This document shows positions 2,735-24,000 of a stretch of 64,000 nucleotides of DNA, piece after piece; within the stretch, counting starts at the first letter, position 1, and the number at the start of each line of letters is the position of its first letter. This stretch comes from Onthophagus taurus. Its lineage: Eukaryota > Arthropoda > Insecta > Coleoptera > Scarabaeidae. The position numbers were made by a program, and so were the translations under genes. The stretch covers positions 3,596,001 through 3,660,000 of the forward strand of contig NC_091976.1 of the NCBI RefSeq assembly GCF_036711975.1, read 5' to 3'. The notes under the pieces were generated by a model. It was not told where the DNA came from, searched no databases, and worked only from the letters and a program-made list of their open reading frames with translations.

Positions 2735-3297
2735 AAAAAATTGAAATTATTATACTATATAATATATAGTTTTTATATATATTATAATAATGCGTAACTT
2801 ATAAAAATAATTTTAAAAGTCGCGTTACAAAGGCGAAGTCAAAAATATGTGTGTGTGGTTCGGGTCGAGCCGTAATTCTTAAATTTTTGCTAAATGCCCC
2901 CGCTTGCGCAGCCAGACTTCTATATGAAAATTTTAACCGTTTATACCATCGGGTACAACCTTGAAAAATGTTAGAATGTGTGTTGCACAACAACAATAAC
3001 TTAAACGTTTATACGTAATTAGACGAATATAAACTTGTTATACAATGCAAATAATATATTATGCATTTTATTTTCTCGAATCTTCGCCGCACCTTGATTT
3101 ATTGACAGTGTATGCAAATAGAAATGCAAATGAAAATAGAAATTTAAAATGCAATAAAATAAAGTTGACTATAATACAATGTATGACGTGTTTTAACTGG
3201 TGACACGCGTAAATTTTTAAAAATTCATGCGACGTTATAGAATTAAGATACAATTATTTTCGTAGTATTAAAATACATGTAGCTTTAAAATATTTAT
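2735..3297. other. AT-rich spacer with no gene seen
   Basis: No coding or structural feature that I can support. Near 3070 the sequence TATTTTCTCGAATCTTCGCCGCAC resembles one near 30755, which suggests a fragment of the same dispersed repeat in both places. Confidence 0.5.
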
Positions 3298-3765
3298 TGA
3301 GCGATAAATGGCGCGCGTATAGCTATGGGCGTTCTAAATCAAAATCCCAAAAGATTTAACGTAGGGGTGTCCAAAAGTACTTTTTATCCCCACCACTACC
3401 TCCTTCTGACCACGTACACATTTTAAATTCATCTGATGAGCGATAGATAGCGCGCGTATAGCTATAGGCGTTCTGGACCAAACTCCCATAAGATTTAATA
3501 TAGGGGGGTTCGAAATCACATTTTATCCCCACCACTACCTCCTTCTGGCCACGCCCACATTTTAAATTCAACCAATCAGAGCGCAGCATTCTCCAAGAAC
3601 CCTCCTTTTGGCGGGAAATTTGAATGAGGCTATCTAGATCGACGGGCCTTATCACGATGACGTCATTGTCGATACATGTGGACACAAAGCGTTGAGCGAT
3701 AAATGACGCGCGCTAGGTGGGGGGTGTTGCCTGATGGGCGATAGATGGCGCGCGTAAAAATTTAA
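3298..3765. repeat. Tandem repeat of about 139 bp with GCGATAGATGGCGCGCG core
   Basis: Two diverged units start at about 3299 and 3438. Each has the order GCGATAAATGGCGCGCG, TATAGCTATGGGCGTTCT, then TTTTATCCCCACCACTACC and CACATTTTAAATTC. Partial units of the core recur at about 3692 and 3737. The open frames over this region on the minus strand are by-products of the repeat. It lies just beyond the 3' end of the minus-strand gene arm of the virus-like element and could be flanking satellite DNA or part of the element end. Confidence 0.7.
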
Positions 3766-3927
3766 AATTCAGTTTCATTCAGTTTAAAATTCATGTGATG
3801 CCATCTGGTGGTGGTGGTAAAAGAGAATAAAGATACATATTTTTTAACAAAAATAAATATTAATTTATTGATTAAAACATAAATTTAATAATACAATAGG
3901 AATATTTCTAATAATAATTCAGGCAAC

Positions 3928-4440
3928 TTAAATACAAGTAACTTTATTTTGTTTACATAAAAATTTTTTTAAAATTAAAACATTGTTCTGTGAACATACC
4001 GCTGGACAACAGCCGACGTGGAACCAACATTGATTGGAGGTTGAATTTAATTTAGTTTCATCCTCTTCCGCAAATTCTAACGCAATATCTGTTATTATTG
4101 AATTATTACTATTATGGTTACGTGTTTCCAAAAACTGCTTCTTTTGATTTCCCTTAACAAATATTTGATCGTAGGAGGAAATTAAACCATCAATTACATT
4201 TAGACCTTCCGATTGATTTATCCACCCATCGTTATATATCAACCTGTGATGGTTGCGTTCTAAATATCTTACTGACCTCTGATCTTCAACGTTTAATCGT
4301 TGGAATGGTACGCTCGGCTTTAGGTTTAAATGTATAATGTAGCCGGTGGCGGTAATATCCAGAAGAGTAAATTCTTTAACTTCGAATTTAGAGTTGACGT
4401 AAAACCCTTGAACGTCTACAACCGCACATCTGAACTTCAT
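3928..4440 (-). CDS. 170-aa accessory protein of a Polinton-like element (exonuclease-like?)
   Basis: A complete 170-residue frame, ATG to stop, read on the minus strand as the last gene of the arm. It begins with a hydrophobic strand followed by Asp (RCAVVDVQGFYV). It continues with a lysine/glutamate motif (FEVKEFTLLD), a central HHRLIYNDG segment and a YDQIFVKGNQKKQFLE block. The C-terminus is Cys/His-containing. I have the impression that similar small proteins lie beside PolB and capsid genes in insect elements. The strand-Asp start recalls DEDD/RNase H-fold nucleases, but no full catalytic set can be assigned. An AATAAA lies on the minus strand about 60 bases past the stop. A function as a nuclease is a guess; the frame itself is likely real. 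Confidence 0.6.
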   Translation of the reverse strand: MKFRCAVVDVQGFYVNSKFEVKEFTLLDITATGYIIHLNLKPSVPFQRLNVEDQRSVRYLERNHHRLIYNDGWINQSEGLNVIDGLISSYDQIFVKGNQKKQFLETRNHNSNNSIITDIALEFAEEDETKLNSTSNQCWFHVGCCPAVCSQNNVLILKKFLCKQNKVTCI

Positions 4441-4745
4441 ATTGTAAACTAATATGTGAAATTTAATTTATAAAACTATAGATACCTCCCCACTCAAAGG
4501 TTTTTGTAAAATTATTAAAGAATGTACGTAATGATTATAAATAACTTCTGAGTATTTCGAATTCCAAAGTTATTTATGTTTCAGTAAAATTATGCAGGTA
4601 TGTGTTATGTTACATTATACTTGCATATAAGTTACTTTAAATATATCTACAATATTTCGAGCGCTGTGTGGGAATTTTATTGGATCCAGTACATCTAATT
4701 TACTAAAACGTTATGTTGTTGAGATAGAGTTGTTTACAAACTGAT
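4441..4745. other. Intergenic spacer between two minus-strand viral-like genes
   Basis: About 305 bases, AT-rich, with no clear TATA/Inr pair and no ORF. It may hold the 3' end of the capsid-like transcript and the promoter of the 170-aa gene, but no motif decides this. Confidence 0.4.
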
Positions 4746-5948
4746 CTATATTTGATTAATCATACCAGTTAAAGGAACATATTTGAAAACACGATCGTGT
4801 AAGATTAAACAGTAGAGGGAAGTAGCATTAGGTATCTCTTCACTCGTTTCAAATTCAATGCGAATATCAACGGTTCCAACATTTAAAATATCATTTTGCC
4901 GTGAACAATCAATTACAATAATCGGTGTATGTGCTAAAAATGTATCTCTGTTAAACATTGGTTCTGCAAGTTCTCGATCGTAATAGGTCTTTGCGAAATT
5001 ACAATACATTTCATATAAAACTGCAATTTGACCTGTCTTAAAATTTAAATTTAAAGCTTCATAGGGATATTTCTCACTATTTAAAAACACTTTCATATCT
5101 GTTAAATTACAGTGGTCAAATTGTGATGCAGAACGTAACGGATTATCTTTTCTATTGATTTGAAACCCTAATATAAAGTATCTGGGCTTTTCTAATTGAG
5201 TAGATGTTTTAATTGTCCAAGTGTGTTGTCTATTTTTTGGTAATGATGGGTATTCATGTAAATCAAATGATCTAAATCCCATGTCTAATTCAATTCCTTG
5301 TTCAATGTACTCTAAAAGTTTTAAACGTTCAACATCGGCTACAGAAACATGAGGAACTTTCCATACTATTTTATTAATAGTAATCGTCACATTAGGTAAA
5401 AGACTTTCGATAACATTCTTGTCTGAATTACTGCGTACTAAAACTAATTCTTGACGGAGATTTATCATTATTTTATTATAATCTTCTGCGAACCCAAGAA
5501 AATATTTCAAGGGAACACAAAAATCAAAATCTCCTGTATTTTCATTTACTTTAACATTTGGATATTCGAAACCTGCGTTAGAGGCATGATAGTATTCCGA
5601 TCTTGTTAATGAGCAAAGATTTTTTAATGTGCTAGCTATTCCTGGATTTCTTACTCTGTCAATTACGTTCCCTCCACATTCAAATCGTACTTCACTAAAC
5701 ATATGAGCGATCGGATTTGCTGACAATTTTGAATCTTTATCAACGGTTCCGTCATCTTTCAAGAGTTTCTCTTGTACGTAAATAAAAGATTGACTTGGTA
5801 ACGTGTAAACGTCCTGTTGTTGAATTGCAATACGAATTTCATCGCTATTGTTAAAAGAATTTGATGAGTATGGTAAATGATTATGATACTGAATCCGTAC
5901 GAGTGAATTATCAAATTGTACTTTATCAGAGACGTTTAAGATACTCAT
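4746..5948 (-). CDS. Double-jelly-roll capsid-like protein of a Polinton/adinto-like element
   Basis: An uninterrupted 400-residue frame starting MSILNVSDKVQFDN. It resembles the family annotated in insect genomes as double jelly-roll-like domain proteins. Typical marks are EIRIAIQQQDVYTLPSQSF near residues 37-56, a FECGGNVIDRVRNPGI segment near residues 89-105, and WTIKTSTQLEKPRYFILGFQ near residues 244-263. Such proteins are thought to build the capsid of Polinton-like viruses. The gene is intact although the neighbouring polymerase is broken. It is followed by the 170-aa gene and preceded by a small ORF on the same strand, which suggests one transcription unit whose promoter has been cut away at about 6089. 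The start is the first ATG of the frame, 8 bases after the small ORF. Confidence 0.75.
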   Translation of the reverse strand: MSILNVSDKVQFDNSLVRIQYHNHLPYSSNSFNNSDEIRIAIQQQDVYTLPSQSFIYVQEKLLKDDGTVDKDSKLSANPIAHMFSEVRFECGGNVIDRVRNPGIASTLKNLCSLTRSEYYHASNAGFEYPNVKVNENTGDFDFCVPLKYFLGFAEDYNKIMINLRQELVLVRSNSDKNVIESLLPNVTITINKIVWKVPHVSVADVERLKLLEYIEQGIELDMGFRSFDLHEYPSLPKNRQHTWTIKTSTQLEKPRYFILGFQINRKDNPLRSASQFDHCNLTDMKVFLNSEKYPYEALNLNFKTGQIAVLYEMYCNFAKTYYDRELAEPMFNRDTFLAHTPIIVIDCSRQNDILNVGTVDIRIEFETSEEIPNATSLYCLILHDRVFKYVPLTGMINQI

Positions 5949-5955
5949 ATTGTTA

Positions 5956-6090
5956 TTATTTTATTAATTGTAAACCTAATGATTCAAGAAATTGTTTGTT
6001 TTGAAGTGTTAACTGTTTCACAGTGTGAAGAGAACTAAAAGTATTTGTTTGATTTTGTGGGTTTATATTACCATTTACTTTAAGAACCAT
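5956..6090 (-). CDS. 44-aa small protein upstream of the capsid-like gene
   Basis: A short frame beginning MVLKVNGNINPQNQ and ending in a TVKQLTLQNKQFLESLG motif, 7 bases before the capsid-like start. Short proteins with an LT..N..FL.SLG tail seem to recur next to double-jelly-roll genes, so it is probably real. Its ATG lies exactly at the junction with the 281-bp capsid duplication (6089). The frame stays open to 6162 inside foreign sequence, so the original 5' part and promoter were probably lost. Confidence 0.5.
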   Translation of the reverse strand: MVLKVNGNINPQNQTNTFSSLHTVKQLTLQNKQFLESLGLQLIK

Positions 6091-6369
6091 AATCCTATAT
6101 TTGATAAAATATTTATTAAAGGGATACCTATTGTAGATGATGGTAATAATCTTGTAACACATACCTTTTGTTGTACTATAACGTGGGAATTAGATATAGA
6201 ATGTATACCAAGATCAAATATAACAATTAATCGTTTACAATGGCAAATAATACGTCCGTATTTACAACAATTATATAAAAAAGATGGTACGATAGAACAA
6301 CGGTCTTTATGTCATGATGGTGGATTTGGTATTAAACCATATAATAATGGTTTTAAACGTGCATCTAAA
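6089..6369 (+). repeat. 281-bp duplicate of the parvovirus-like VP 3' region
   Basis: This block matches 11433-11713 with three differences seen by eye (about 99% identity). It encodes an internal part of the VP-like protein. Here the codon that is TGA in the full-length copy is TGG. Identity stops sharply on both sides: on the left at the start codon of the small minus-strand ORF, and on the right where a different Gln/Pro-rich frame starts. It marks the left edge of the NS/VP cassette. Confidence 0.9.
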
Positions 6370-6711
6370 ACCACACACATCACATAGTTACGGCAATAGT
6401 ACAACATATAGACCAGCAACAACACATCAAGCTCAACCAATCGCGGGTCCAAGTGGTGTTCAACAATCTACACAACAAGTAAATCCTGTGGAACAACCAA
6501 ATCAACAAGTAGAACAACCAGGAGGAAGCGCCCATAATACAGGTGGAGCAGTTCAAGGTGAAGCCGGTAATAGACAGATTCAAAAACCAGCACCTCGATT
6601 TGGTGAAATGAGTACTTATGTATTTCATAGTACTAATGAAACTAATATTGATAATTTAGCTGAAATATTAGAGATGACATATCCTAATACTAACATTATA
6701 CAATGTAAATA

Positions 6712-8386
6712 CAGTGAGTAACTTTAATATTCGGTTTTTTTATTACAAACTCTTCTGTCTGAAATTTTCAGAAGAAAATAAGAAAAAAAATTTTTGTTTG
6801 TATCTTGTTCTTTGATACATATATCTATTATTTTAAAATATGTACATTTGTTGTTTCAATCTTATTTCAATAAACCTACAACAAACAATATACATAAAAC
6901 AGTGAAAATTCGCGCAACATTAATATTCGGTTTTCTTTACTGTGAAAAATGGAAACACTTGTTAGCAGTTGAGTTGGCCAAAGAATAACGCTATTTTTTC
7001 TAAATCGCAGTAGGCTACGTTACCTATGACGTTACCCGGCATGCAATTGTCATTTCACTTGATTAAAACGTATAAAACGAAGCGATGGGGCGTAAAAGCA
7101 AAAATTCGTCAATTGAAATTAAAAAACTTGTCATTAAACATTATGTAACACGGAAAACATATAAAAAAATAGCGGAAATTTTAAATATGAAAGTGAGTAC
7201 AGTTGGGGATATAGTACGGCGATACAGAGAGGAAGGCAGGATAGAATACCTCAAGCAAAAAGGGCGACCAAAAAAGTTGTCTGCACGAGAAGAAAAGTAC
7301 ATTGTGCGTAAAATTAAGTGTGAACCGCGTTTAAGTGCGCCAAAACTGGCTGCTGATGTATTTTCTACATACGGTAAGAACGTACACCCCCAAACCATTC
7401 GGCGTGTAATACAATCAGAGGGTTATAACGGACGAGTAGCTAGGAAAAAACCGTTCATTAACGAGCGTACAAGAAAAGCCCGATTGAATTTTGCTAAAGA
7501 GCACATAAAAGAACATGAAACTTGGTGGAATGATGTAATTTTTTTAGATGAAAGCAAATTCAACTTATTTGGTAGCGACGGAAAAGTTATGGTTTGGCGG
7601 AAACCCAATGAGGAGTTGAAACCAAAACATTTGAAACCTACAATAAAACACGGAGGTGGCCATGTGATGGTTTGGGGGTGTATTTCGTCCAAGGGGACGG
7701 GAAATCTGGTGTTTATAGACACCATCATGAACAAAGAAATATATCTAAATATTTTAAAAGAAAATTTGAAGAAGTCAGCTGAAAAAATGGACATTCTACA
7801 GAGTTTTAAGCTGTACCAAGATAATGACCCCAAGCATAAAGCACATATTGTAAGGGAATGGTTGCTTTATAACTGCCCGAAAGTGATCGCCACTCCTCCG
7901 CAATCACCTGACCTTAATCCCATAGAGAATTTGTGGGATGAATTGGAGCGGCGTGTTCGGCAGAAGCCGGCTTCTTCCCATATAGAACTGAAGAAAAGGT
8001 TACAGGAAGAATGGGCAAAAATTGGACAAGACTATACCCAAAAAATAACTGGCAATATGCCAAAACGTCTAAATGATGTTATTAAAAACAATGGGTTCAG
8101 TACGAAATATTAATTTCTTTAAATTTGAACTATTTTTTATAATTATTTTGTAAGTGGGCAGAAAAACCGAATATTAATGTTGCGTAAATTTTTGATTATT
8201 TTGTGTTTTTTTGTTAATTGTAGGTTTAATAAAATATATTTAAACAACAAATGCGCATATTTTGAATTAAAATACATATATCGAAATACTAGTTGCAAGA
8301 AGAAAGGAATTTTTTCTTACTTTTTTTGTGAAAATTTCAGATAAAAGAGTTTGTAATAAAAAACCGAATATTAAAGTTACTCACTG
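6712..8386 (+). mobile_element. Apparently complete Tc1 element with long IR/DR termini
   Basis: The element is bounded by TA at 6710-6711 and 8387-8388 and begins and ends CAGTGAGTAAC...GTTACTCACTG. The TIRs are about 230 bp and imperfect. Each holds two copies of TAATATTCGGTTTT, one terminal and one about 200 bp inside, the IR/DR layout with two transposase-binding sites known from several Tc1 families. It carries one intact transposase gene. It sits inside the parvovirus-like NS frame; with one TA removed the host frame is continuous, so the insertion came later. Confidence 0.92.
7085..8113 (+). CDS. Tc1 transposase, DD34E, intact frame
   Basis: A 342-residue frame with no break. The N-terminal half holds the bipartite helix-turn-helix DNA-binding region (KTYKKIAEILNMKVSTVGDI and the following GRPKK hook). 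The catalytic domain shows FLDESKF, YQDNDPKH and SPDLNPIENLWDELERR; the last Asp and the Glu are 34 residues apart, the DD34E of Tc1 enzymes. A GGGHVMVWG glycine-rich box is present. Transposases of this family cut and paste the element at TA in the nucleus. Length, motifs and TIRs are all in place, so the copy could be active or recently active. Confidence 0.93.
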   Translation: MGRKSKNSSIEIKKLVIKHYVTRKTYKKIAEILNMKVSTVGDIVRRYREEGRIEYLKQKGRPKKLSAREEKYIVRKIKCEPRLSAPKLAADVFSTYGKNVHPQTIRRVIQSEGYNGRVARKKPFINERTRKARLNFAKEHIKEHETWWNDVIFLDESKFNLFGSDGKVMVWRKPNEELKPKHLKPTIKHGGGHVMVWGCISSKGTGNLVFIDTIMNKEIYLNILKENLKKSAEKMDILQSFKLYQDNDPKHKAHIVREWLLYNCPKVIATPPQSPDLNPIENLWDELERRVRQKPASSHIELKKRLQEEWAKIGQDYTQKITGNMPKRLNDVIKNNGFSTKY

Positions 8387-9323
8387 TATATAGAAATTAA
8401 TGGAAAAGATCTTACTGATTGGTTTATACTTTGTTGGGTATCTCCATTTAAAATTGGTTATAAAACTCTTGCACAACGTATTGGTAATAAACATTTACAA
8501 ACATATTGTTTTATGCATCAATTACCTAACTTATATCAAGACAATAAAGATGACGCTAGTGTTAATGAACACATTCAAACATTAATGCGTGTTCGTATTA
8601 TTAATGATGTCGAAATGAGAACTTTAGAGGAGCAAATCGAAATTACTGAAGCTAATAGTAATAAATATAATAAGATTAATAACTTCAATTAACGATGAAG
8701 CTCCACCAAAAAGACGTAAATTATATTCATTATATTGTTGTTTCAGATATGTCACTCCAATCCAGCATGTACGATGAAATTTTCAGTGTTGATCCTCCTT
8801 CAATTGCTGAACATTCTATTATTATTATTGATTCCGATAATTCCCACTATGTTTATCTCCCTCCGGAGTTGGATGCTTCACATCATTCAAAGTTTGCTCA
8901 TATTCCTGTAACAAATGCAGAGACATTAACAAAAAGGTATAACAATTATGTTGCATATAGTTTTGTTATTACTAGCGATAATAGTTCCTATAAAGATAAT
9001 AGCGAACAATTTTGGCTACTATTCATGCAATGTTGAAAGACTTTAATGAACGTGTTTGTTCTAATAAACTAGAACTTTTAACTTCATTAAATTCTCGATT
9101 CCTTGCTGTATTAGAAAAAAAGTAATTTTCGTGGATATCATATGCATATTATTTTATTTTTACAGGATGAAACTAAATCCGTACATGCTAAACAGGATCA
9201 TAGAATGGCAGCTACTGAAGCATACAATGAATTTAATATATATATTTACAACATACTAATAATCATCTTTATGAATTTGAATATTTTCAAATAACTTATG
9301 AATATGTTAAATCTAATGCATCT

Positions 9324-10235
9324 ATGTTTAATTATATTAAGAAAAATCCATTACAAATAATTTTTGATGATTTAGATATTGTGAAAATGTTTTTAAACTT
9401 TAAACGAGAACATATATTTCCTAGTACAAGTGTATCAACCAATCAATTACAAGTATCTACATCTTCTGTTAATTATGTTTGTTATTTCTTTAATAAGTGT
9501 CTTGAAAAAGGATGTATTGATTTTGAACAATGTTTAGCACAACCAGACTCGATTAAAATCATTGGAAATAAAGGTTTACGAGAAATCTTTATGAATTGTC
9601 GTTCAAAATATATGGCTTCTCGTACAATAAATGATGCTATAAATGAATTATTACAAAAATTTGTATCTATGAATTATATGAAACGTTGTTTTTGTTCAAT
9701 TATTGATTGTTGTAAAATTCAATCTATTGATTTTAATGAATTAACTAAATCTGTTGCATATTGGTTAGTTGGTAAAGAACCTTATAAAAAACGATGTACA
9801 TTAATCTTATTAGGTCCTGCCAGTAGTGGCAAAACTGTATTTTGCCAAAATTTACATAGTTTATTCCGATTCGCTAATCGTTTAACTTCTGATGGTATAT
9901 TTACCTTTCAGAATATTATTAATGCTGATGTAGCGTTGCACGAAGAACCATTAATTTCAGTTGATATAGCTCAAACCGCAAAACTTGTCTATGAAGGTAA
10001 TCCAAATGCTACTGTCGCTGTAAAAAATGGTTCTCAACAACGTTTAAATAAACGTATACCTATATTAGTTAGTAGTAATAATGAACTGTATAAATACGTG
10101 TCTTCGGAACGTGACGCATTCGATGCTCGCTGTCACAAATTCTACACACACGTGGATATGACAAAAGTTGAGTTCTGTGTACAAAATAATCATTCTTGTG
10201 ATTTTAACACTAGACTGCACCCGTCGTGCCAATAA
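9324..10235 (+). CDS. Parvovirus-like SF3 helicase (NS1-like C-terminal part)
   Basis: A 303-residue open frame. It has the superfamily 3 helicase motifs in order: Walker A GPASSGKT (about nt 9812), the Walker B region LHEEPLIS (about nt 9942), motif B' around YEGNPNATVAVKNGSQ, and the sensor ILVSSNNEL (about nt 10070). The acidic pair before Pro and the VKNG/SSNN motifs are those of NS1/Rep helicases of parvoviruses and bidnaviruses, which unwind the viral genome for replication. The real start is not 9324, since an upstream frame feeds into it after a frameshift. Downstream it overlaps a short frame and then the VP-like gene. The piece is intact within itself, but the gene as a whole is broken. 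Confidence 0.7.
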   Translation: MFNYIKKNPLQIIFDDLDIVKMFLNFKREHIFPSTSVSTNQLQVSTSSVNYVCYFFNKCLEKGCIDFEQCLAQPDSIKIIGNKGLREIFMNCRSKYMASRTINDAINELLQKFVSMNYMKRCFCSIIDCCKIQSIDFNELTKSVAYWLVGKEPYKKRCTLILLGPASSGKTVFCQNLHSLFRFANRLTSDGIFTFQNIINADVALHEEPLISVDIAQTAKLVYEGNPNATVAVKNGSQQRLNKRIPILVSSNNELYKYVSSERDAFDARCHKFYTHVDMTKVEFCVQNNHSCDFNTRLHPSCQ

Positions 10236-10476
10236 GGACATTACCAGCTCCAGAAATTGGCAAAATAAGCGGCCACGGCTCAATGAAGAAACGGAGGACC
10301 CTCTCCATGTGGATGTCGACGCAACAGATACATTAATTGAATGTAATAAACCTCATCGTTTACGTAAATGTCACATGTTAACGTTTGTCATATACGCACT
10401 TAAACGTTATTTTCCAGAATTAATAACACTTGATTTAAACATTTGTTCCAATTCACATAATGCCGAGTTTCAGTAA
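10168..10476 (+). CDS. Small overlapping ORF with basic motif between helicase and VP-like gene
   Basis: A 102-residue frame overlapping the end of the helicase and the first bases of the VP-like gene. It contains a basic NKRPRLNEETEDP stretch that could be a nuclear localisation signal, and the tail FVIYALKRYFPELITLDLN. It may be the displaced C-terminus of the helicase, a separate NS product, or nothing. I do not recognise it. Confidence 0.3.
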   Translation: MSSVYKIIILVILTLDCTRRANKDITSSRNWQNKRPRLNEETEDPLHVDVDATDTLIECNKPHRLRKCHMLTFVIYALKRYFPELITLDLNICSNSHNAEFQ

Positions 10477-11896
10477 GACACGTATTTTTTATTATAATAA
10501 TGATGCTAATACTTATACCACAACAAGTCAATCTACAGATTTTTATATAAGTAAGATTATACCTGATTCTAATGCGTTTTATTGTGTAGGATTAAAAGCT
10601 GAAAAACATAATTGGCATTTAATACCTACGAATTGTTTAGGATTATATATGACTTTAGCTGATTTGCAAATGGTTGTAGAAAATAGTGATGCTTTTAAAA
10701 TAAATAAATATAAAATAACAATTGGTCATACTATTCCTATCGCTAAATATCCTGGTACTGTTAACACTGTACAATTAAGTTTTAATAATACTATATATTC
10801 AACTATTGTAATTGAAGATTCTAATTACATTGGTGTAAATACAACGTTAAGTGCAGAAGAATTTTATATGTTACGTACATTTGATGGTGTTAGTTCATTA
10901 GATGGTAAATCACGATTAGAATTACCTAAACGTAATATATTTTTTAGAATACCAGCTACTTCTTATACTGATTCTGATGCAGTTGATAATACTACTACGA
11001 AATTATATGGATCATATTCAAATACACCTGGTACTATAACTTCTGAAAATGCTAAATCTTCTAATAACTTGACAACAGCAGATTTGATTAATGCTTATGT
11101 ACCTGAATTATTACAAAATAATGATAAAGTTTTTGCATTATATCCAGGTGAAAATATATATACGCATGAACAAGTAATAGGAGATGTAACAACTAATATT
11201 GAATGTACAGGTCCACATTTTAATGAATTAATATATCATGCAGATCAACGTATACAAGCATTATTAAATACTACTAATATAATTAGATCTCCTGAAAATA
11301 TATTATTAATGCCATTAAGTTTTCAATTAAAAGGTAATCATGAAGATACAGTGTCTTGGATAGATGAAACTGATGCAAATAATTGGAACAGAATGTTTGA
11401 ATTACAAAATAATCGTAGTGTTAATTTAGATTATAATCCTATATTTGATAAAATATTTATTAAAGGGATACCTATTGTAGATGATGGTAATAATCTTGTA
11501 ACACATACCTTTTGTTGTACTATAACGTGAGAATTAGATATAGAATGTATACCAAGATCAAATATAACAATTAATCGTTTACAATGGCAAATAACACGTC
11601 CGTATTTACAACAATTATATAAAAAAGATGGTACGATAGAACAACGGTCTTTATGCCATGATGGTGGATTTGGTATTAAACCATATAATAATGGTTTTAA
11701 ACGTGCATCTAAATTAAAATACTTATTTGATATATGTAAAAAACCAACTAGAACTACTTGGAAACGTAAATATAAAGATGTCCCTATTTTAACTTTTGAT
11801 ACCAACATTGCTTATCCTGATGATACACACCCTGCTAAATTTGGTTCTGCATATCCGTTTGAAGTTTCTACAATAGGTCATCCGAATTTTCAATAA
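10460..11896 (+). pseudogene. Parvovirus/bidnavirus-like capsid protein VP with one premature stop
   Basis: The frame runs 479 codons from ATG at 10460 to TAA at 11896, with one TGA at 11528-11530 at a position that is Trp (TGG) in the duplicate at 6089-6369. The N-terminal third (HNWHLIPTNCLGLYMTL, ITIGHTIPIAKYPGT, VQLSFNNTIY) has the look of the jelly-roll start of parvoviral VPs. A Ser/Thr/Asn-rich middle and a conserved-looking C-terminal part follow. It directly follows the NS1-like helicase, as in parvoviruses. The assignment rests on layout and motif impression, not on a search. The single stop suggests recent decay. Confidence 0.55.
11433..11713 (+). repeat. 281-bp block duplicated at 6089-6369
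   Basis: This is the source-side copy of the direct repeat, inside the VP-like gene. The three differences from the other copy include the base that makes the premature TGA here. Confidence 0.9.
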
Positions 11897-11916
11897 CTTC
11901 CCGTCGCATGAGACAT

Positions 11917-12051
11917 AATGTGACGGGACGTAGTCGAACCGGTCGCAAAAAGAAAAAACAATTGTTATAATTATCAATAAATCTATATTTACTTTCACCT
12001 TGTTGTTTTATTCATGGCCTTCCATTTCTTACTGCGCAGGACCTCCTGCGC
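11917..12051 (+). terminator. 3' end of the VP-like gene: basic mini-frame, AATAAA and a GC palindrome
   Basis: After the VP stop a second frame encodes a very basic tail (about nt 11911-11970, ending TGRSRTGRKKKKQLL). AATAAA lies at 11976-11981, followed by T-rich sequence, a fitting poly(A) signal. At 12034-12051 the palindrome GCGCAGGA-CC-TCCTGCGC has an 8-bp perfect stem. It could be a leftover of a viral terminal hairpin or chance. Confidence 0.4.
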
Positions 12052-12262
12052 TGCGTTAGGCGCAATTGAACGCCGTTTTTGAATATATTAACGATTGTTA
12101 TTACAATTATAACTACTGGCATGTGTATCGTAATGCAAATACTATATTTGTTAATTTTACTGATTATTAAATTTTATGTTTGTTAAATTGCGTATAAACG
12201 TTTAAGTTGTTATTGATTACCGCGCAACTCGCATTCTAAAATGTTTCAAGGTCTTTTCGATG

Positions 12263-12299
12263 GTATATAAACGGTTAAAATTTTCATATGGAACTCAGT
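12263..12299 (+). promoter_or_regulatory. TATA box and TCAGT initiator of the 101-aa gene
   Basis: TATATAAACG at about 12263 is followed about 30 bases downstream by CTCAGTTAC (12293-12301), the arthropod initiator TCAGT. The spacing is ideal for a core promoter. It places the RNA start just after the ATG at 12288, so translation should start at the next ATG, 12363. Confidence 0.65.
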
Positions 12300-12362
12300 T
12301 ACTACCGTTACTACCTTCTATTACTACTCACATCGCTCGCTCACTTTATAAAAGCTATTAGT

Positions 12363-12665
12363 ATGTCACGTTTAAGACAATTAGGTCAGTGTCAATTTTC
12401 CCCAAAGAAAAATATATCCGAATTAGAGGTGAATAAAATGTATGTGATTAAGTCTGCGAAGCGGATTACATCATGCGCATGGCCATCAGTTGTCGTAGAT
12501 TTGGAGGATGGATTCTCCGTTTTCTTACCTAAACGCATCGCGGAGGTGATTACGGATGGTGAAATTACGGAGCTAGGAGGTATGAGCTTAATATTCAAAG
12601 GAGTAAAAGATGTCGGAAAAGGGAATCCAGCCCATCTCATCGATTTTGTAAAAAACGTAAAATAA
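12363..12665 (+). CDS. 101-aa conserved-looking accessory protein of the Polinton-like element
   Basis: The frame begins MSRLRQLGQCQFSP at 12363. The earlier in-frame ATG at 12288 lies upstream of the predicted RNA start and would add a hydrophobic stretch, so I do not use it. The protein has alternating strand-like segments (MYVIKSAKRIT, PSVVVDLEDGFSVFLPKRI, MSLIFKGVKDVGKG) and no Cys. The pattern would fit a small OB-fold single-strand-DNA-binding protein, but no residue proves this. It is undamaged and lies between the VP-like gene and the polymerase gene on the same strand. It probably belongs to the PolB arm of the element. Confidence 0.6.
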   Translation: MSRLRQLGQCQFSPKKNISELEVNKMYVIKSAKRITSCAWPSVVVDLEDGFSVFLPKRIAEVITDGEITELGGMSLIFKGVKDVGKGNPAHLIDFVKNVK

Positions 12666-13358
12666 ATAAATGTTCTTATCGACTATATAAAAAAAAAACG
12701 TTAGAAAGTAAAATGTTAATAAATTTTTTTGTAAAACGTAAAATAAATGTTCTTATCGAGTTTGCAAAAAAACTTTTTACAAACTTAAAATTTATTTATT
12801 TGTTTTCTTTTTTAATTCATCATTGTATTTTGTATTGTCATTATTATTCAAATATTAATTGTTAAAAAATAATATTTTTTGATGGGTGGAATGTTTAGGC
12901 AACCCAAATAACAAACCAAATTTTTTATGTAACCATGACAATTTTGTCGATTTCAAATGTTATAAATAAAACAAGAAGCCATTATTGTATTCGTTATTAA
13001 AACGACGCTTTTTTATTCGATCCTCTGAAGAATTCAACTTAGAACCCCAATTCAAGTAAGAACTTTCCTTTTTTTCTTTCGAACCAACACCTACAATTAT
13101 TCCCGATATTTGTCGCGCGAACAATATCCATAACACGACGTCCATTGAAGAATTCTGTTTAAATAATTTATCGGAAATTAATTTTTATGTGATGGAATAC
13201 TTGGAAATAATAAACTCTACAACAGCTTCTATTTGATCACGTGATCACCGCGTGATATTGACGATTGACCATAACTCTAATCACACGTCTAGCTGCTTAT
13301 CAGTTCAACGTTAGCGGTTGTCGCGCACATTTATACCGGAAATCAATTTTACAATAAG
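12666..13358 (+). promoter_or_regulatory. Spacer with a probable promoter for the zinc-finger/PolB gene
   Basis: The segment is AT-rich up to about 13190, with a near-duplicated TTTGTAAAACGTAAAATAAATG phrase around 12645-12755. At 13236-13258 the sequence TGATCACGTGATCACCGCGTGAT contains the perfect palindrome ATCACGTGAT. TATCAGTTC at about 13298 is an initiator candidate 60 bases before the gene's ATG. No ORF of note is present. Confidence 0.4.
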
Positions 13359-16300
13359 ATGTTTCTTTGCGAAGTGTGTAACGGTGCGTTTACCTTAAAG
13401 CACAATCTTACCCGTCATATACGCGTAAAACACGGTAATGTGCGGGAATCGAACTTTAAATGCCATATCTTTTTCTTTTTTCTTTCTTTTTCTTTTCTTT
13501 CTTTTGTTTTTCTTTTCTTTTGTTTTTCTTTTCTTTTCTGTTTATTCGGTTGGATAGAGCAGATTTTTCTGGATCCCGCCGTTTGTATCTCGATATGGGT
13601 ATATATATGTATATGTTTTTAAATTTTAATTTACCATAACACATTGGGGTATCGTTGTTTTCATTTATTGTTTAAGTTATTATAATTTCAAGATTATGCA
13701 TACATTTATGTACATATTCATTTAGTTATACATTTTGTTGTGTATGTATACATATATATATATATATATATATGTATATATTTCTTTTTTTCTCTATTTG
13801 TTTTATATGGGATACAATAAAGTCATATTATTATTATTATTATTATATCTGTGAAAAAGGTTTTTCAAGATCTGATAAATTAAAACATCATCTAAGAAGC
13901 GTCCATGGATGATTAAATGTTCAACGTTGTGTTGCGCCACCACCACCACCTTTACAAAGCACATCAGCCGGTCCGGTTCAACTTGCGCCATCATCACATC
14001 CACCACCTAAACAGCGGCCCTCCAAACCTTTAAAAAGTACGTCAGCGGGTTCTGTTCAGCATACGTCATCATCATCATCATCATCACCACGTCCTCCACC
14101 TAAACAGCAACCCTCCAATTTATGTCGAATTTGCGGTGTTGACTTTATATCTACCACTCACCTTCGGACTCATCTAAGATTGGAACATGCAACCCCGGTG
14201 GAAGGTGAAGATAACATCGATAGATTGGAATCCTGTTTTAAAGGTAGAGTTTGTACCTATAGAGTCGCAGGCGTGTTACCCGATGATGATATACCATCGT
14301 TCCTAACAAGATCAGAAGGAGCTGTTAAACGGATGATTGAGGTTAGTTTAGATCGATGTGGCCCCTCTATAAAGGTTCAGATTGAGTTTTTTGCGAATTA
14401 TGTTAAAGCCGCGTATGATGAGAATGGGGATGAAGACGTATTAATGTCCGAGAAAAATTTTAATTGTAAATTTCAAGTTGTTTCGGTGGGTACGGATTTG
14501 CATGAGGTGTATGTTGGGATGTGTAGGGAAATTTTAGCTCAAAGCGAAGAATTTCAAGAACGCGACTCTGGGTGGGCCTTCTTCTCCGTATCTCACCTCC
14601 TGCTTAATATTAATAAATTTGAACCTATACCCGGGTCATCGTATATACGTTTACCTCAGGTAATTGCTGAAAAACATGCGTGCGTAAATATTAAAAACTA
14701 TGAGGATGATGCTTGTTTATCGTGGTGTTTGACGGCGGCTCTTCATCCTGCAAATCATAGTCGCGATCGAACTACAAGCTACCCTCATTATAGTCAAGTA
14801 CTTAATTTGCAAGGGATTACATTTCCCATTACTTTAAAAGATATCATTAATGTAGAAAAATTAAATAATTTAAGTATTAATGTTTACGAATTGATAAGTA
14901 GTAGTAGTGGTAAATACACAGTGGAAGGGCCAATTTATTTTACCAGACAAAGACGCGATATTCATATAAATTTGCTTTATCTATACGAAAACGGCAAGGG
15001 GCATTTCGTTTTAATTAAAAATCTTTCAAGGCTAATATCGAGTCAAGTCACGCACCGCGAACATTCTATACACCTTTGTGATGGATGTTTGACGCGGTTT
15101 TCATCCGCAGACAAGTTACTCGCACATCAGCCTTATGATTGTAATCATGTGATGACCGTTTTACCTACAACCGATTTAAAATCTAAATCAAACTTTTTCG
15201 GTTTAAAAACTCCGCAAAATATTTTAGAATTTAACAATTATAAATACACTCAGATGGCTCCCTTTGTCATCTACGCTGACTTTGAATCGCTTTTAAAACC
15301 GATCGATTATTGTAAACAGAGTAGCGCTAAATCTTTTACGGAAAAAATTGAGGAACATCAACCGTACAGTTTTGCTTATTACATTGTTTCCAATATTGAT
15401 AGCAGATTAAATAAATTTGAAACGTATACGGGACCGGATGCGCCTAAAATTTTTATCTCTAAATTAATTGATGATGTTAAATTACTTTACAACAAATACT
15501 TTAAAACTGTAAAACCAATGATACCTTTAACGGCCGATGAGCAATGGCATTTCGAATCGGCCGAAAATTGCATTATTTGTCAAAATCATTTTACTTCAAA
15601 CCAGGTTAAGGTTCGTGATCATTGTCATATTAGCGGCAAATACCGAGGCCCCGCCCATTCAAATTGTAATCTAAATTTAAAACTTCAAAATTTTATTCCG
15701 ATATTTTTTCATAACTTTAGCGGGTATGATTGTCATTTATTTATTAAAGAAATGGGCGATGTAGACAAAGATGGGCTTGATGTATTACCTAATAATAAAG
15801 AGAGATACATTAGTTTCAGTAAAAGATTTTTGGTCGATAAGGTAATTAGCGAAGACAAATCTGTTGGAAATGTTTTCTTTAAATTAAGATTTGTTGATTC
15901 ATTTAGATTTCATCTTCATTAGATTCTTTAGCAGGTAACCTTAATGAGTTTGATTTTATTAGCATGCGTAAATCTTACCCCCACAATGATCATTTTAAAT
16001 TGCTGACCAAAAAGGGAATCTTTCCCTACACCTTTATGTCATCATTTGATAGGCTTAATGCCACATTTTTGCCCCCTAAAGAGACGTTTTTTAATAATTT
16101 AAATTTAGAGGGAATATCTGATGAGCAATATGTTCATGCCCAAACTGTTTGGAAGAAATTTAATTGTCAAACTTTTAAGGATTATTCTGATTTATACTTA
16201 AAGACCGATGTTCTTCTATTAGCTGATGTATTTGAGAAATTTAGACGTGTATGTTTCAAAACCTACGGTTTGGATCCCGCTCATTATTATACGGCACCGG

Positions 16301-17763
16301 GGCTATCTTGGGATGCTATGCTAAAAGTCACTCAAATTAAATTGGAATTGTTGACGGATATTGATCAAGTTCATTTCATTAAAAAAGGTATCCGTGGGGG
16401 CATTTCCCAATGCTCCCTACGTCATGGTAAAGCAAATAATAAATATATGGAAAATTATGATGCTAATGCGCCCTCTAAATTTCTAATGTATTGGGACGCT
16501 AACAATTTGTATGGGTGGGCAATGTCTCAATTTATGCCCGTTTCCAACTTTAAATGGTTGACTGAAAACGAAATTCAAAATTTAGATTTTAATAATATAC
16601 CCGATGATTCCGATTTCGGATATATTTTAGACGTGGATATTGCGTATCCCGAACACTTGCACAACCTACATAATGATCTACCTTTCTTAGCCGAGAATTT
16701 AATCCCCCCTAACTGTAAATGCGAGAGCGATAAACGATTAATTCCAAATTTATTTGATAAGACAAATTATGTAATTCATTACAGAAATTTAAAACAAGCC
16801 GTTGCACACGGATTAACTATAAGAAAAGTTAATAGAGTTTTATCGTTTAAACAATCCCCTTGGTTAAAGTCATATATCGATAAAAATACAGAGTTACGCC
16901 AATCGGCTAAAAATGATTTTGAAAAGGATTTTTTTAAATTAATGAACAACGCAGTTTTCGGTAAAACCATGGAAAATGTTGATAAGCGAGCCGACGTCCG
17001 CTTAGTAACCAGTTGGGACGATATCAGGTCTGGCAAAACCGCAGGTCGACCTAGACTTGGAGCTCGGAGTTTAATCGCTAAATTAAATTTTAAAAGTGTT
17101 AAAGTATTCACAGAAACGTTTTCGGCAATTCAAATGGAGCGTCTTCATGTAGTCTACGATAAGCCTCTATACGTTGGTTTTACAGTTTTAGAACTGTCAA
17201 AATTATTAATGTACGATTTTTATTATGATTTTTTAAAATCTAAATACGGAGAGGACGTTCAGTTGTGTTACATGGATACCGACAGTTTCACCGTACTAAT
17301 TAAGTCTGACGATGTGTATAACGATGTTAAATTAAATTTAGATAAATTTGATACATCTAACTACAGTCCCGATAATCGGTTTGACATCCCCTTGCAAAAT
17401 AAAGCGGTTTTAGGTAAGATGAAAGATGAAAATTGCGGAAACGTAATGGTCGAATTTAATGGTTTAAGATCGAAGGTGTACGCAAATCGGGTCGCGGATG
17501 GGCGAGTTACTAAAAAATCTAAAGGTATTAAGAAAGCTGTGGTTAAACAAAAGCTTTCATTTCAAAATTATTTCGACTGTTTACATTCAAATTCCGTCTT
17601 GTGTAGAAAACAGTTATTATTTAGAAGTTTTAACCACACGGTTTTTACCGTTTTACAAAACAAATTGGCCCTTTCCCCACATGATTCCAAGCGATGTATC
17701 GATGCCGATGGTATTAAAACATTGGCTTGGGGTCATTTTACCACTATTTCGAATAACGTTTAA
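13359..17763 (+). pseudogene. C2H2 zinc-finger / HNH / protein-primed type B DNA polymerase (Polinton-like), broken
   Basis: The gene starts with C2H2 fingers. The first is CEVCNGAFTLKHNLTRHIRV. The second is split by a 380-bp insertion. The third is CRICGVDFISTTHL near 14130. Pro/Ser linkers lie between the second and third. The polymerase follows: Exo I YADFESLL (about nt 15268), an HNH/endonuclease VII-like insert (CIICQNHF... RDHCHISGKYRG), Exo II HNFSGYDCHL, Exo III LKTDVLLLADVFEKF, motif A YWDANNLYGWAMSQ (about nt 16489), motif B LMNNAVFGKTMEN and motif C CYMDTDSF (about nt 17266). The C-terminus is complete. Damage: TGA after finger 2 (about nt 13908), the insertion, and one frameshift at about 15905-15920. 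Catalytic Asp residues are kept. AATAAA at 17889. Such polymerases copy Polintons and adinto- or bidnaviruses. Confidence 0.9.
13471..13850 (+). mobile_element. 380-bp retroposon-like insertion in the second zinc finger, with ATATCT duplication
   Basis: ATATCT occurs at 13465-13470 and again at 13845-13850. Removing the 380 bases joins the two Cys of the finger and restores the frame. The insert is rich in simple sequence: CTTTT-type pyrimidine repeats at its left, TA repeats at about 13750-13775, and a 3' end of AATAAAG followed by (ATT)n directly before the duplicated ATATCT. A 3' microsatellite tail plus a target-site duplication fits a SINE or truncated LINE in plus orientation. A phrase like GTTGGATAGAGCA near 13549 resembles a tRNA A box. 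Confidence 0.65.
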
Positions 17764-18090
17764 ATATATTTAAGTAGTTTAAGTAGAAAATAGTATATCA
17801 TTTTTTTGAGTATGTTTAATTTAAATTTTTAATATATGTATAAACGTTAATTTTTTGTGATTTTCTCTTCCTCCTACCCTCAATCAGTAATAAAGAACCT
17901 ATTTTAAGGTAAGTATTATTATTTCAATTAAGTCATCGCTCCGCGGGGGATTACCTTCCGCTGATAAGCATACGATCGTCGTCGTCGTATTTGTCATCGC
18001 TCCACGGGGGATTAACTTCCGCTGATAAACGTATGAGCGTCGTCGTCATCTCTACTTGAACGTTATTTAAACACTTTAATTCATTTCCTT
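17764..18090 (+). repeat. PolB 3' flank with AATAAA and a 61-bp tandem duplication
   Basis: The poly(A) signal AATAAA is at 17889-17894. At 17932 and 17993 two imperfect copies of a 61-bp unit start GTCATCGCTCCGCGGGGGAT and end with GTCGTCGTC runs. The unit may lie near the right end of the Polinton-like element. I could not find a matching inverted copy at the left. Confidence 0.6.
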
Positions 18091-18126
18091 CGGTAGCCTA
18101 GCGTGCAAGACGCCCGACTCTCAGCC
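18091..18126 (+). mobile_element. tRNA-derived SINE, 5' half (split by the LINE)
   Basis: CGGTAGCCTAGCGTGCAAGA looks like the A-box half of a tRNA. It ends in GACTCTCAGCC, which is duplicated at 21394-21404 on the far side of the LINE. The B-box half continues from 21394. The stems are imperfect, so it is a SINE head and not a working tRNA gene. Confidence 0.6.
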
Positions 18127-18424: not shown

Positions 18425-19823
18425 ATGACGAAACACAAACAAAAGCCGCCAACACCACCGGTCGAAATCCAATCTGACGCTGAATCCACCGCCACCATCG
18501 CATCAGAGCTTACCCGAAAGCTGATGGAAGTTGAAGAAAAGCTCCAGGCCACCCCCGAGGAAGAAGAACCGCCAACCGGATTTACGAAGGCGAAGAAAAG
18601 AAAAAGGAAGATGAAGTCCACGGAAGACATCACCGTCGAACTCAAAAACCGATATGAACTTCTCCCGGAAGAAGTCGACAATATCGCGAAATCCCTCCCT
18701 GCGGGTAAGAGCGCTACACTTATAATTAACAAACCCAAACCCCCGATAAACCAAACCCAAAAACGGACCAGCCCCCTATAACTATTCATCTAGGTGGTTT
18801 CTGTAATCACCTCAGACTTACCGGCGATCTCACCCAATGGGTGGGATAAGATAACTACACCCTTAGGTATACGGCCAGCGGTTGCACCGTATATGTCAAA
18901 AATCCCGACAACCGAGCAAAAATTATCAAAGAGCTCAAGAAATCGAGCATACCCTTCCACACCCATACCCCAGAGAGGATCGCGAGAAAGCGTTCACCCT
19001 CGACGGCCTCCCCCTGCAAATAACCCCCGAAGAGGTCACAAACGAGATTTTCGACCTGTCGACAATCCAGGCGACCAAATGCTTCCTAATGAAAGGGACT
19101 CGTTATCCCCGTTTTCTAATCACCTTTTCCGACATCAAAAACCTGGATACCCTCCAAAAGCAAATCCCCTTCCTTTTCAACACCCGTGTCTACTGGGGAT
19201 ACGTTAGAAATACCAAACTCCTTATACAGTGTAAGAACTGCCAAGGCTGGGGTCACGCGACCTCAAACTGTTACGCCCGTCCCAAGTGCATTAAGTGCAC
19301 CGGTGATCACAAAACCGCTGATTGCCAAATCACCCGCGACAACGGTCTTCCCATTTCCTGTACCAACTGCAAGGGCAACCACACCGCCAACTCCACCGAA
19401 TGCCCTCGATATCACCAAGAAATTGCGCGTCGCAATATTAAATGGTCAACCACCCAGCCGACCAAGCCCACCACAACACCACCGCGAGCACAAATCGCTC
19501 CAACTTCTTTCCCCCCGATCCGTCCCCTCAATCAACCCTGGAACGCCATCGTGAAAGGGCCCCAACACCAGCAAAACCCCCCAACAGCACCACCCCCTAC
19601 TCAGCCCCCCATTCAATTCAAAGCTCCCCAAGCGAACTCTCTCCCCAACACCTCCGACTTTAACGAGCTCGGAAACCTGATGGCCGAGATTAATTCCCTA
19701 ATTAATCTCCCAAACCTCATCAACGCCCTAAAACAGTTTAGGGATACCCTCCTTATAGACAAAAGTCCCGCCTCGCTCCTGGACGCTACACAGAAACTCT
19801 ATTCCAACCTCCTCAATGTCTAG
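18425..19823 (+). pseudogene. LINE ORF1 (Gag-like) with CCHC knuckles, frameshifted
   Basis: The first part (18425-18781) is charged and proline-rich and ends in a stop. The main part continues in another frame from about 18882 to 19823. It has an RNA-binding-like segment (EKAFTLDGLPLQITPEEVTN) and three zinc knuckles: CKNCQGWGHATSNC, CIKCTGDHKTADC and CTNCKGNHTANSTEC (about nt 19230-19410). A Pro/Gln/Thr-rich C-terminus follows. ORF1 proteins of jockey-type LINEs bind the element RNA. The frame change between about 18780 and 18880 disables it. Confidence 0.85.
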
Positions 19824-21087
19824 CTTAACTCTAGTCCAGTTCAACGCTAACAGTCTTATCCCTAAAATCCCGGAGATAACCGACTTCCTAAAAAGACTAA
19901 ATGTCGACGTCCTCCTAATAAACGAAACCAAACTCATCCCAACCGATTCCGTCTCCTTTCCAGGATACACCATCCTCCGAAAAGACAGAACCCGTCGAGC
20001 CGGCGGTGTTGCTGTTTTGATCAAAAATACCATCCCGCACCAAGTAATCCCCCAACCCAATCACGGCCATCTAGACCTTATCACCATAAAACTAGACAGC
20101 AACCTCTTCGTCACCGCTCTCTATAGCCGCCCCAACGGCCCCCTCACAACCACCGATTTAAACCATCTAATCGGCTCCTACAACAAAACCCTTCTATTCG
20201 GCGACCTCAACGCCTGCCACCCTTACTGGGGATGTAATAGAATAAACAAAAAAGGGCGAACTATATACAATTACACCCAGGCCCACAACGCGTTCGTCCT
20301 CGCCCCTAGAGCGCCCACACATTTCCCCCCAAACGGCTCTACGCCAACAACCATCGACATCGCCCTGATCAAAAACGTCACCGACATCTCCGACCCAGTC
20401 GCTTTAAACGATCTGTCATCCGACTACTCTCCGGTCATCATTAAAATCGGTTCAAACATCCCAAACGAACCACCATCGAAGTCCCCCGATTTCAAAAAAG
20501 CCGACTGGACGACGTTTAAAAACCACATAAACGCCCGTATCCACGTCACCCCCGACATTCAAACAACCCAAGACCTCGACGCGGCCATCGATCTCCTCAC
20601 CAGTACGATCGTGGCCGCCAAAAACAAATCGATCCCCCTCACGCCTAAACCGAACGGCCTCATCCCCAAAACTCCACCGCATATTCTCGTCATAATCCAA
20701 AACAGAAATGCAATACGTAGGCAGTATCAGCGAACCCGCGACCCAATCACACTGACCGAGCTCCGCAAATTAAACAAATCAATTCAGTCCGAGCTCAAAA
20801 AGCACAAGAACGAAACGTGGTCCAAAAAACTTCAATCCCTAAACCCAGATGACAAATCCATCTGGTGCACAATCCGCAAAATCAAAAATCGATTTAAACC
20901 GATCCCCGCCCTAAAGGACCAACACAGCCACATCATTTCAGACAGAGACAAAGCCCTCGCCCTCACAAACTATCTGGCCGCCATTCACACAGCCAAACCT
21001 AACACATCGGCCGAACAAAACAATATCTCCCAAAGAGTTCACAATTTCACTCAATCGCATCTCCGACACTCGTCCGCCCTCAATTAG
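19816..21087 (+). pseudogene. LINE ORF2: AP-like endonuclease domain only
   Basis: A 423-residue frame overlapping ORF1 by 8 bases (ATG inside the ORF1 end), as is common in jockey elements. The endonuclease motifs are visible: QFNANSL, LLINETKL, GDLNACHPYWGC, TTIDIALI and LSSDYSPVI. In the last motif the usual SDH is SDY, so the catalytic His is lost. After a basic linker (about residues 290-400) the frame ends and no RT motif (such as FADD) appears. The product could at best be an inactive endonuclease fragment. Confidence 0.88.
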
Positions 21088-21461: not shown

Positions 21462-21717
21462 GTTAGGGCACTAGAGCGTTACCCCCTATCGTAGGGGGAT
21501 GCTTGGGGTTGATGCGGGTTGCAGGGAGCCATTAGGGCACTAGAACACCATCCCCTATCGTAGGGGGTTGAAAAGACCCATTAGGGCACTAAGATGGGGT
21601 TGAAGGGAGCCATTAGGGCACTAACATGCGGGTGAAGGGAGCCATTAGGGCGCTAAGATGGGGTTGAAGGGGTTGAATGGAGTCATTAGGGCACTAACAT
21701 GGGGTTGAAGGGGTGAT
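21462..21717. repeat. Minisatellite, CCATTAGGGCACTAA...GGGGTTGAAGGG units
   Basis: At least seven variants of a 30-45 bp unit built from CATTAGGGCACTA and GGGGTTGAAGGGAG, some including CCCCTATCGTAGGGGG, a short palindrome. Units are imperfect and of unequal length. The repeat grows out of the SINE body. There are no spacers of constant length as in CRISPR. Confidence 0.85.
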
Positions 21718-21943: not shown

Positions 21944-21989
21944 AATATCTATTAAGTGCTCATTAAATAGAGGCGTAATTCTGTTTATA

Positions 21990-23934: not shown

Positions 23935-23936
23935 TA

Positions 23937-24000
23937 TAACTCTCGTGCCGTGTGCAATTCATTTAGTATATATTTGAGTTCCTGACGAAATTAATTTAGT
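23937..24000 (+). promoter_or_regulatory. Short leader of the densovirus NS genes
   Basis: TTAGTATATATTTGAGTTCC at about 23961-23980 is a TATA candidate about 25-30 bases before the NS1 ATG. The real promoter may extend to the left of the mariner insertion, in 21944-21989. Confidence 0.35.

Follow-up and report, generated by a model that had tools for sequence, protein, structure and literature searches.

Very probably, a 64,000-nucleotide stretch of the dung beetle Onthophagus taurus genome (the window; C11:3596001-3660000 of an assembly of 290.8 Mb in 33 contigs) contains a duplicated, decaying chapparvovirus-like endogenous parvovirus fossil nested in a scrambled Polinton cluster. In our best reading, a parvovirus that has since decayed lies in the host chromosome amid fragments that stem from several different Polintons. 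The original prediction had described a parvoviral NS1/VP cassette lodged between the capsid arm and the PolB arm of a Polinton-like element, explained as a chance integration, a genuine chimeric virus genome, or a relic related to the bidnavirus ancestor; we read its observation as largely right and the chimera as not supported. Coordinates without a contig prefix are positions in the window, C1, C3, C4, C6, C7, C10, and C11 are contigs, and genome-wide counts are lower bounds, only the best candidates of each search having been scored. The locus comprises the following features:

2915-3200, no strand: inner part of a terminal repeat belonging to the left Polinton (family Y); 99.3% identical to C1:22365420-22365705.
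3928-4440, minus strand: g170, a 170-aa Polinton gene; open frame, no Pfam match.
4746-5948, minus strand: double-jelly-roll (DJR) capsid-like gene of family Y; PF21738, E 1.9e-107.
6089-6369, plus strand: displaced 281-bp VP piece at the Polinton/virus junction; 98.9% identical to 11433-11713.
6370-8692, plus strand: viral gene upstream of the helicase, split by a mariner transposon (pieces ~6370-6711 and 8388-8692); matched by copies 2 and 3 of the viral segment.
6712-8386, plus strand: Tc1/mariner transposon; PF01498, PF13358, inverted repeats, ends placed by eye.
8683-10235, plus strand: NS1 remnants; pieces 8683-9036 and 9115-9294, SF3 helicase frame 9237-10235.
10460-11969, plus strand: VP gene; open until 11530, then broken, with a presumed end at ~11969.
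11970-12072, plus strand: GC-rich palindromic stretch past VP; fold statistics and a copy 2 match at 95.7%.
12073-12995, plus strand: third-family terminal-repeat fragment with a 125-aa open reading frame (ORF), g125, at 12288-12665; similarity shown for 12073-12724.
13124-18126, plus strand: family X PolB module, comprising a zinc-finger ORF (13359-13622) and PolB in two parts, the N part with HNH (14180-15922) and the C part (15964-17763).

The genes previously listed are real, with Pfam, homologue, and profile matches at the DJR, helicase, VP, endonuclease-VII, and PolB positions. A single Polinton-like element around the parvoviral cassette is not supported, because the two arms match different Polinton families. 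Three features had been missed, namely the Tc1/mariner element (~6712-8386) inside the viral segment, the presence of the 281-bp VP piece twice (6089-6369 and 11433-11713), and the disruption of the viral genes, and the 101-aa gene described on the right sits inside the g125 ORF.

Taken singly, each arm has a collinear Polinton counterpart at another site in the genome. Family Y is our name for the Polinton matching the left arm, an 11.5-kb element at C1:22364212-22375689 with which positions 2915-6093 are collinear at 95.8% identity. Homology stops at 2915 on the left and 6093 on the right, and VP sequence starts at 6089. The C1 element has inverted ends of ~1.5 kb with broken g125-like sequence and carries an rve integrase (E 2.9e-15), an A32 ATPase (E 9.4e-8), PLA2 (E 8.8e-15), DJR, and g170, while the 24 kb read at this site gave no PolB match. 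Beside its DJR lies a 249-aa gene with no Pfam match, which we take to be penton-like, chiefly from its position. The g170 gene has 150 matches in the genome, 11 of the listed ones at 97–100% with the window copy included, and full-length DJR at ≥96% identity occurs at 22 places including the window's (among the best 104 of 352 candidates). These 22 full-length copies at 96–100% identity suggest recent family Y activity. Another family Y DJR, with g170 in two separate pieces, lies ~15 kb to the left at C11:3579672-3585235.

Family X is our name for the Polinton matching the right-hand PolB arm. Its module carries an endonuclease-VII domain (14180-15922, E 4.5e-6) and PolB (15964-17763, PF03175, E 5.5e-24), the frame being broken between them, and matches C11:10776919-10781346 and C11:11157332-11162002 at 78–79% over 13124-13470 and at 92–94% over 13846-17875/18126. 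The first of these elements has its own DJR and g170, 30% and 55% identical to the window's. Database matches to PolB are best among O. taurus proteins, at up to 98% identity (best 120 of 7984). The unit starting at 12073 belongs to a third family: it is 91% identical over 12073-12673 to the L010/L011 terminal-repeat units and 87% identical to L020 as far as 12724, and the unit is present in both inverted ends of a 12.6-kb C10 element (87%) that also carries integrase, ATPase, and PLA2. Its g125 ORF has 151 genome matches. Short tandem repeats were noted at 17932-18047, the end of the PolB module, and at 21564-21714; the latter type lies just beyond both family X PolB copies that were read, the former beyond one.

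An inverted pair of repeats (2915-3036 and 12170-12296, 78.9% identity) brackets the block. Since arms and repeats match different families, the pair is not proof of one element, and we best read it as terminal-repeat pieces of different families. No ATPase or integrase was found between the arms among the window ORFs scanned, and the core genes of a Polinton do not lie together within one element's terminal repeats here.

Within the viral segment, the helicase (9324-10235, plus strand) matches PF01057 at E 3.1e-7, and a two-row profile matches AAV Rep40 at E 1.8e-7, with Rep40, Rep68, and NS1 among the PDB matches; it is an NS1-type SF3 helicase of the Parvoviridae. A single database homologue was recovered, in a search that covered proteins up to ~530 aa, such that full NS1 may be missed. 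The frame at 9115-9294, between the upstream NS1 pieces and the helicase frame, contains the sequence GYHMHIILFL, an HUH-like motif that may be that of the parvoviral nickase; this piece has no match in Pfam or PDB. An intron at 9122-9166 was considered and rejected, because the diverged copy 3 reads through it and the stretch carries the HUH-like motif.

VP (10460-11530, plus strand) retains 356 open codons and has no Pfam match; it was identified through 30 homologues, the best at 46% identity (E 3.0e-86), of which 28 are labelled lgn, one is labelled ena, and one is from the scarab Popillia japonica. A 25-row VP profile matches PDB 9NEK, the capsid of Syngnathus scovelli chapparvovirus (PMC12115719), at E 1.4e-15, followed by a B19 parvovirus chain at E 0.042; the single sequence matches 9NEK at E 1.2e-5. 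VP is thus a chapparvovirus-related capsid protein. The S. scovelli protein is the closest solved relative of the VP family, yet distant: its chain has 364 aa whereas complete VP homologues here mostly reach ~500 aa, and the scaffold reported for its virus is 4.0 kb (PMC12115719) whereas the contigs of many VP homologues are longer. The predicted VP structure is of fair quality only (mean pLDDT 69.6), and scans with DJR, VP, and the VP alignment found no relatives among IMG/VR viral contigs.

Past VP, the stretch 11970-12090 folds as DNA with z -3.9 (0/200 shuffles) and includes an 8-bp perfect stem at 12034-12051, possibly a remnant of a viral terminus or origin. This one GC-rich palindrome at the right edge is a candidate terminal hairpin; the left terminus is absent. 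The two 281-bp VP repeats are in direct orientation and differ at three sites, from which the insertion looks young, assuming that they were identical when inserted. The mariner (transposase ORF 7085-8113) sits at a TA and is present in the window copy only; the gene that it splits is uninterrupted by a transposon in copy 2 and matches copy 3 in two blocks, at 55% and 68% aa identity.

Both VP and the nickase-like motif favor a parvovirus of chapparvovirus type over a bidnavirus. That the locus is a relic or relative of the bidnavirus ancestor is extremely unlikely, even though it shares with Bidnaviridae an SF3 helicase, a parvoviral capsid fold, and a nearby Polinton-type PolB (PMC4061559 and PMC9896142), all inside 12 kb, and though the longest contigs of 14 of the 30 VP homologues measure 5.6–6.4 kb, near the ~6 kb reported for one-segment bidnaviruses (PMC9896142). 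Bidnaviruses are described as having no nickase domain (PMC4061559), whereas the window holds the presumed HUH-like motif; VP matches a chapparvovirus capsid, the PolB comes from a separate Polinton family with many copies in this genome, and the insertion looks young by its 3/281 differences. Since the PolB at hand is collinear with that separate family, it does not count as evidence of a virus-encoded PolB; the viral genome here is incomplete. Equal contig sizes linking the VP and PolB homologue lists were not found among the best 120 of 7984 PolB matches. The PolB alignment recovered two distant IMG/VR elements, and no DJR Pfam domain was found in their scanned ORFs.

Copies of the viral segment are few. 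The helicase has six genome matches, corresponding to three clear places, namely the window, C11:3205791-3207231 on the minus strand (96–98%), and C11:4904264-4905156 on the plus strand (66–72%), and one weak place (C7:21096488, E 8.5e-4). VP has four genome matches, all on C11 (one gene of 356 codons, one partial, and two small pieces), and is confined to the window locus and copy 2. Copy 2 (C11:3204270-3210104), 0.39 Mb away, matches 4779-13213 and keeps the order DJR, VP piece, NS, VP; an assembly slip at the junction is unlikely because DJR, VP piece, and NS thus follow one another at two sites of one chromosome. The DJR part of copy 2 has 98.8% identity, with 98.6–99.5% in most viral segments, and 98.6% over 12996-13213, with lower values at 6370-6705 (95.1%) and 11970-12084 (95.7%). 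Copy 2 lacks ~11099-11667 and 12085-12995, has an extra internal repeat, and is without the mariner; its DJR is truncated, cut at 4779, and its right flank reaches 13213.

Copy 3, the NS place at C11:4904264-4905156, is 68–78% identical in DNA, starts at ~6368 (by protein match), and ends at 10424, without VP. A g170 fragment lies 8 bp past its end, and its right side holds only g170 and g125 fragments; to the left are a presumably hAT-like ORF and, farther left, a mosaic Polinton. Extra ORFs lie upstream of the genes kept in the window, one with a glycine-rich stretch.

These copies bear on whether the locus is a genuine chimeric element or virus, in which NS1 and VP replaced the middle genes of a Polinton and which moved between the repeats 2915-3036 and 12170-12296. 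Inverted repeats do flank the block and the junction is common to two near-identical copies, but copy 2 breaks off inside DJR (4779) on one side and at 13213 on the other and is without the right repeat unit; with such end points it was not produced by end-to-end transposition. The left repeat is truncated, the two repeats best match different families, and the same gene order was found at one other locus only, the near-identical truncated copy 2; a third chimeric copy is absent, copy 3 being NS without VP beside mere Polinton fragments. We consider a mobile chimera very unlikely.

The genome-wide comparison supports a chance integration of a parvovirus into Polinton sequence. The helicase occurs at three clear places vs at least 104 for DJR, 150 for g170, 151 for g125, and at least 73 for PolB (full PolB copies below 72% identity are absent from the PolB listing). 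No NS1 place coincides with any of the remaining 21 full-length DJR places at ≥96% (best 104 of 352 candidates); besides the window's, the one DJR at an NS1 place is the truncated DJR of copy 2. Related Polintons read without the cassette were found on C1 and C7: in the C1 element the penton-like gene comes next after DJR, and at C7:35763942-35772966 a 99%-identical DJR, with g170 and a penton-like gene, is joined to an opposite-strand PolB. There the penton-like gene lies between the DJR and PolB arms, PolB is without its N-terminal part, terminal-repeat sequence stands on both sides, and no NS or VP match was found. The idea of a genuine chimeric virus genome finds no support in these loci.

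The layout of divergent arms, with g170 and PolB on opposite strands, proved real. When 73 listed PolB places were compared with 118 g170 rows at a 12-kb limit, in 31 the nearest g170 lay upstream in the same orientation, in 16 it was also upstream but on the opposite strand, and in two it was downstream on the opposite strand; 24 had none within 12 kb, including the window's, which exceeds the limit by 33 bp (12,033 bp). Of the nine other listed PolB copies at 94–95%, eight are preceded by a g170 in the same orientation, whereas the ninth has no g170 row inside the limit. Ten other g170 rows reach 97–99%. A listed PolB is 2.9 kb from one of them (C4); the others have no listed PolB closer than 28 kb, or none at all on the contig.

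These layouts bear on a further alternative, a parvovirus inserted into one recombinant Polinton that predated it, with Y capsid and X PolB arms on opposite strands and the middle deleted, which would still be a nested insertion. We regard this as distinctly unlikely. The opposite-strand layouts (16/73 and C7) and the mosaic Polintons of this genome favor it, as does the arrangement common to the window locus and copy 2, with Y to the left and a shared right flank that extends to 13213. However, 0 of the nine other listed PolB copies at 94–95% have a divergent g170, the left terminal repeat is cut at 2915, and a third family's repeat unit stands between virus and PolB; the two arms here come from different families.

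Under the preferred reading of a fossil nested in a Polinton cluster, rearranged viral DNA longer than a single genome unit, in which an internal deletion had brought mid-VP up against the 5' genes, would have been captured via end joining next to the family Y DJR gene, its right end coming to lie against sequence upstream of the family X PolB module. Duplication in inverted orientation would have followed, and then the mariner, and the third-family unit at 12085-12995 may have been gained in one copy or lost from the other. By eye, the Polinton/VP junction has 2 bp of shared sequence, and a target duplication is not recognisable because the flanks differ. The window DJR and g170 are open reading frames, but the left terminal repeat is incomplete and the PolB frame is disrupted; judging from the sequence, we think that the locus has no present activity as a virus or transposon.

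Several observations pull the other way. Part of the DJR gene was duplicated along with the virus in copy 2, so Polinton and virus travelled together once. A stand-alone NS/VP copy with both parvoviral ends, which the original prediction had named as one sign of a mere nested insertion, was not found in the genome; the third NS place is without VP and abuts Polinton fragments on one side. Mosaic Polintons occur (C11:4886627-4898889), and on C7 and C4 (2.9 kb) a Y-type capsid gene has a PolB of a different type close by, which would fit a recombinant Polinton with Y capsid and X PolB arms that predated the insertion. Finally, the association of parvoviruses with Polintons may not be pure chance: of the ten parvoviral places in the surrounding block of C11, seven are at most 3 kb from a listed Polinton gene, a number that 20,000 random placements inside the block, averaging 1.9, attained in 0.05% of cases. 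This figure overstates the case because several places are copies of one another. Grouping by eye on identity gives five lineages, four with at least one place near a Polinton gene.

This Polinton-rich block, C11:3.10-4.95 Mb (1.85 Mb), makes up 0.64% of the genome and holds 27 listed g125 rows (of 151 matches) and every one of the three clear chapparvovirus-like places. Of the nine ambidensovirus-like NS1 places it has seven, one of these weak. It is rather unlikely that parvoviral DNA joins Polintons repeatedly and non-randomly in this beetle, the block trapping at least two lineages and the junctions, some of them then duplicated, being raw material for a bidnavirus-like chimera.

The window itself holds a second NS1 (24001-25751, plus strand; overlapping ORF 24068-24979), ambidensovirus-like, with Parvo_NS1 at E 4.6e-11 in 25329-25751. 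Its type occurs at nine genome places, seven of them in C11:3.10-4.91 Mb, and it resembles the ambidensoviral element described in PMC6631224. At three C11 places, g125 is followed after 0.8–1.4 kb by an ambidensoviral NS1 in the same orientation, and on C3 such an NS1 lies beside a g125-like stretch. The idea that NS1 replaces PolB in Polintons was nevertheless rejected, because g125 is in terminal repeats and NS1 is thus outside the element, and because the C6 copy has an ambisense densovirus layout without Polinton genes (no DJR, g170, g125, or PolB match in its 10 kb). This C6 locus (L048 4354-8594; C6:31644653-31648893) has open frames, with an NS1 of 632 aa and, on the other strand, Denso_VP4 (E 1.5e-27) and a PLA2 ORF. 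The C3 locus (L047; C3:7978191-7980104, minus strand) is a diverged ambidensovirus-like NS1 of 638 open codons, <1 kb from g125-like Polinton sequence. Between the PolB module and the second NS1, the window contains GC-rich ORFs at 18425-21087, one with a reverse-transcriptase-type endonuclease domain (endonuclease/reverse transcriptase; PF14529, E 5.9e-13), probably a non-LTR retrotransposon, and an inverted-repeat transposon with a Tc3-like transposase fragment at 21985-23939, which is absent at the corresponding site of the copy 3 locus.

Compared with insect Polintons/Mavericks, whose DJR, penton-like, A32 ATPase, rve integrase, PLA2, and PolB genes and terminal repeats are all present among the relatives here, the window holds a capsid arm and a PolB arm only, from two families. 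Compared with Bidnaviridae, which have no nickase (PMC4061559), it has the HUH-like motif, and its PolB is that of a separate transposon family; on these grounds and on its chapparvovirus-type VP, the reading as a relic related to the bidnavirus ancestor is not supported. The known elements ChPV.10-12-OntTau (PMC6631224) are from the same species, and their chapparvoviral rep is disrupted, as it is here. At the ChPV.10 site there is also an ambidensoviral NS1 with an overlapping ORF, as at the copy 3 locus (C11:4902952-4908068). For these elements the table of that source gives rep only and its text a partial cap, whereas VP here has 356 open codons, and the viral segment here adjoins the DJR arm of a Polinton directly; the two sets of loci may be identical. 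The same source notes that chapparvoviral and ambidensoviral elements of O. taurus share a site and suggests integration hotspots; the word Polinton is absent from its main text. At the level of titles and abstract openings, we found no published link of O. taurus parvoviral fossils to Polintons.

The proposal that bidnaviruses arose from a parvovirus integrating into a Polinton requires such integrations. The present locus is an apparently young parvovirus/Polinton junction that has gone nowhere, ordered relative to later events by copy 2 and the mariner. It also shows that parvoviral fossils of O. taurus sit in a block dense with Polintons, and the 'hotspot' remark of PMC6631224 thereby becomes testable.

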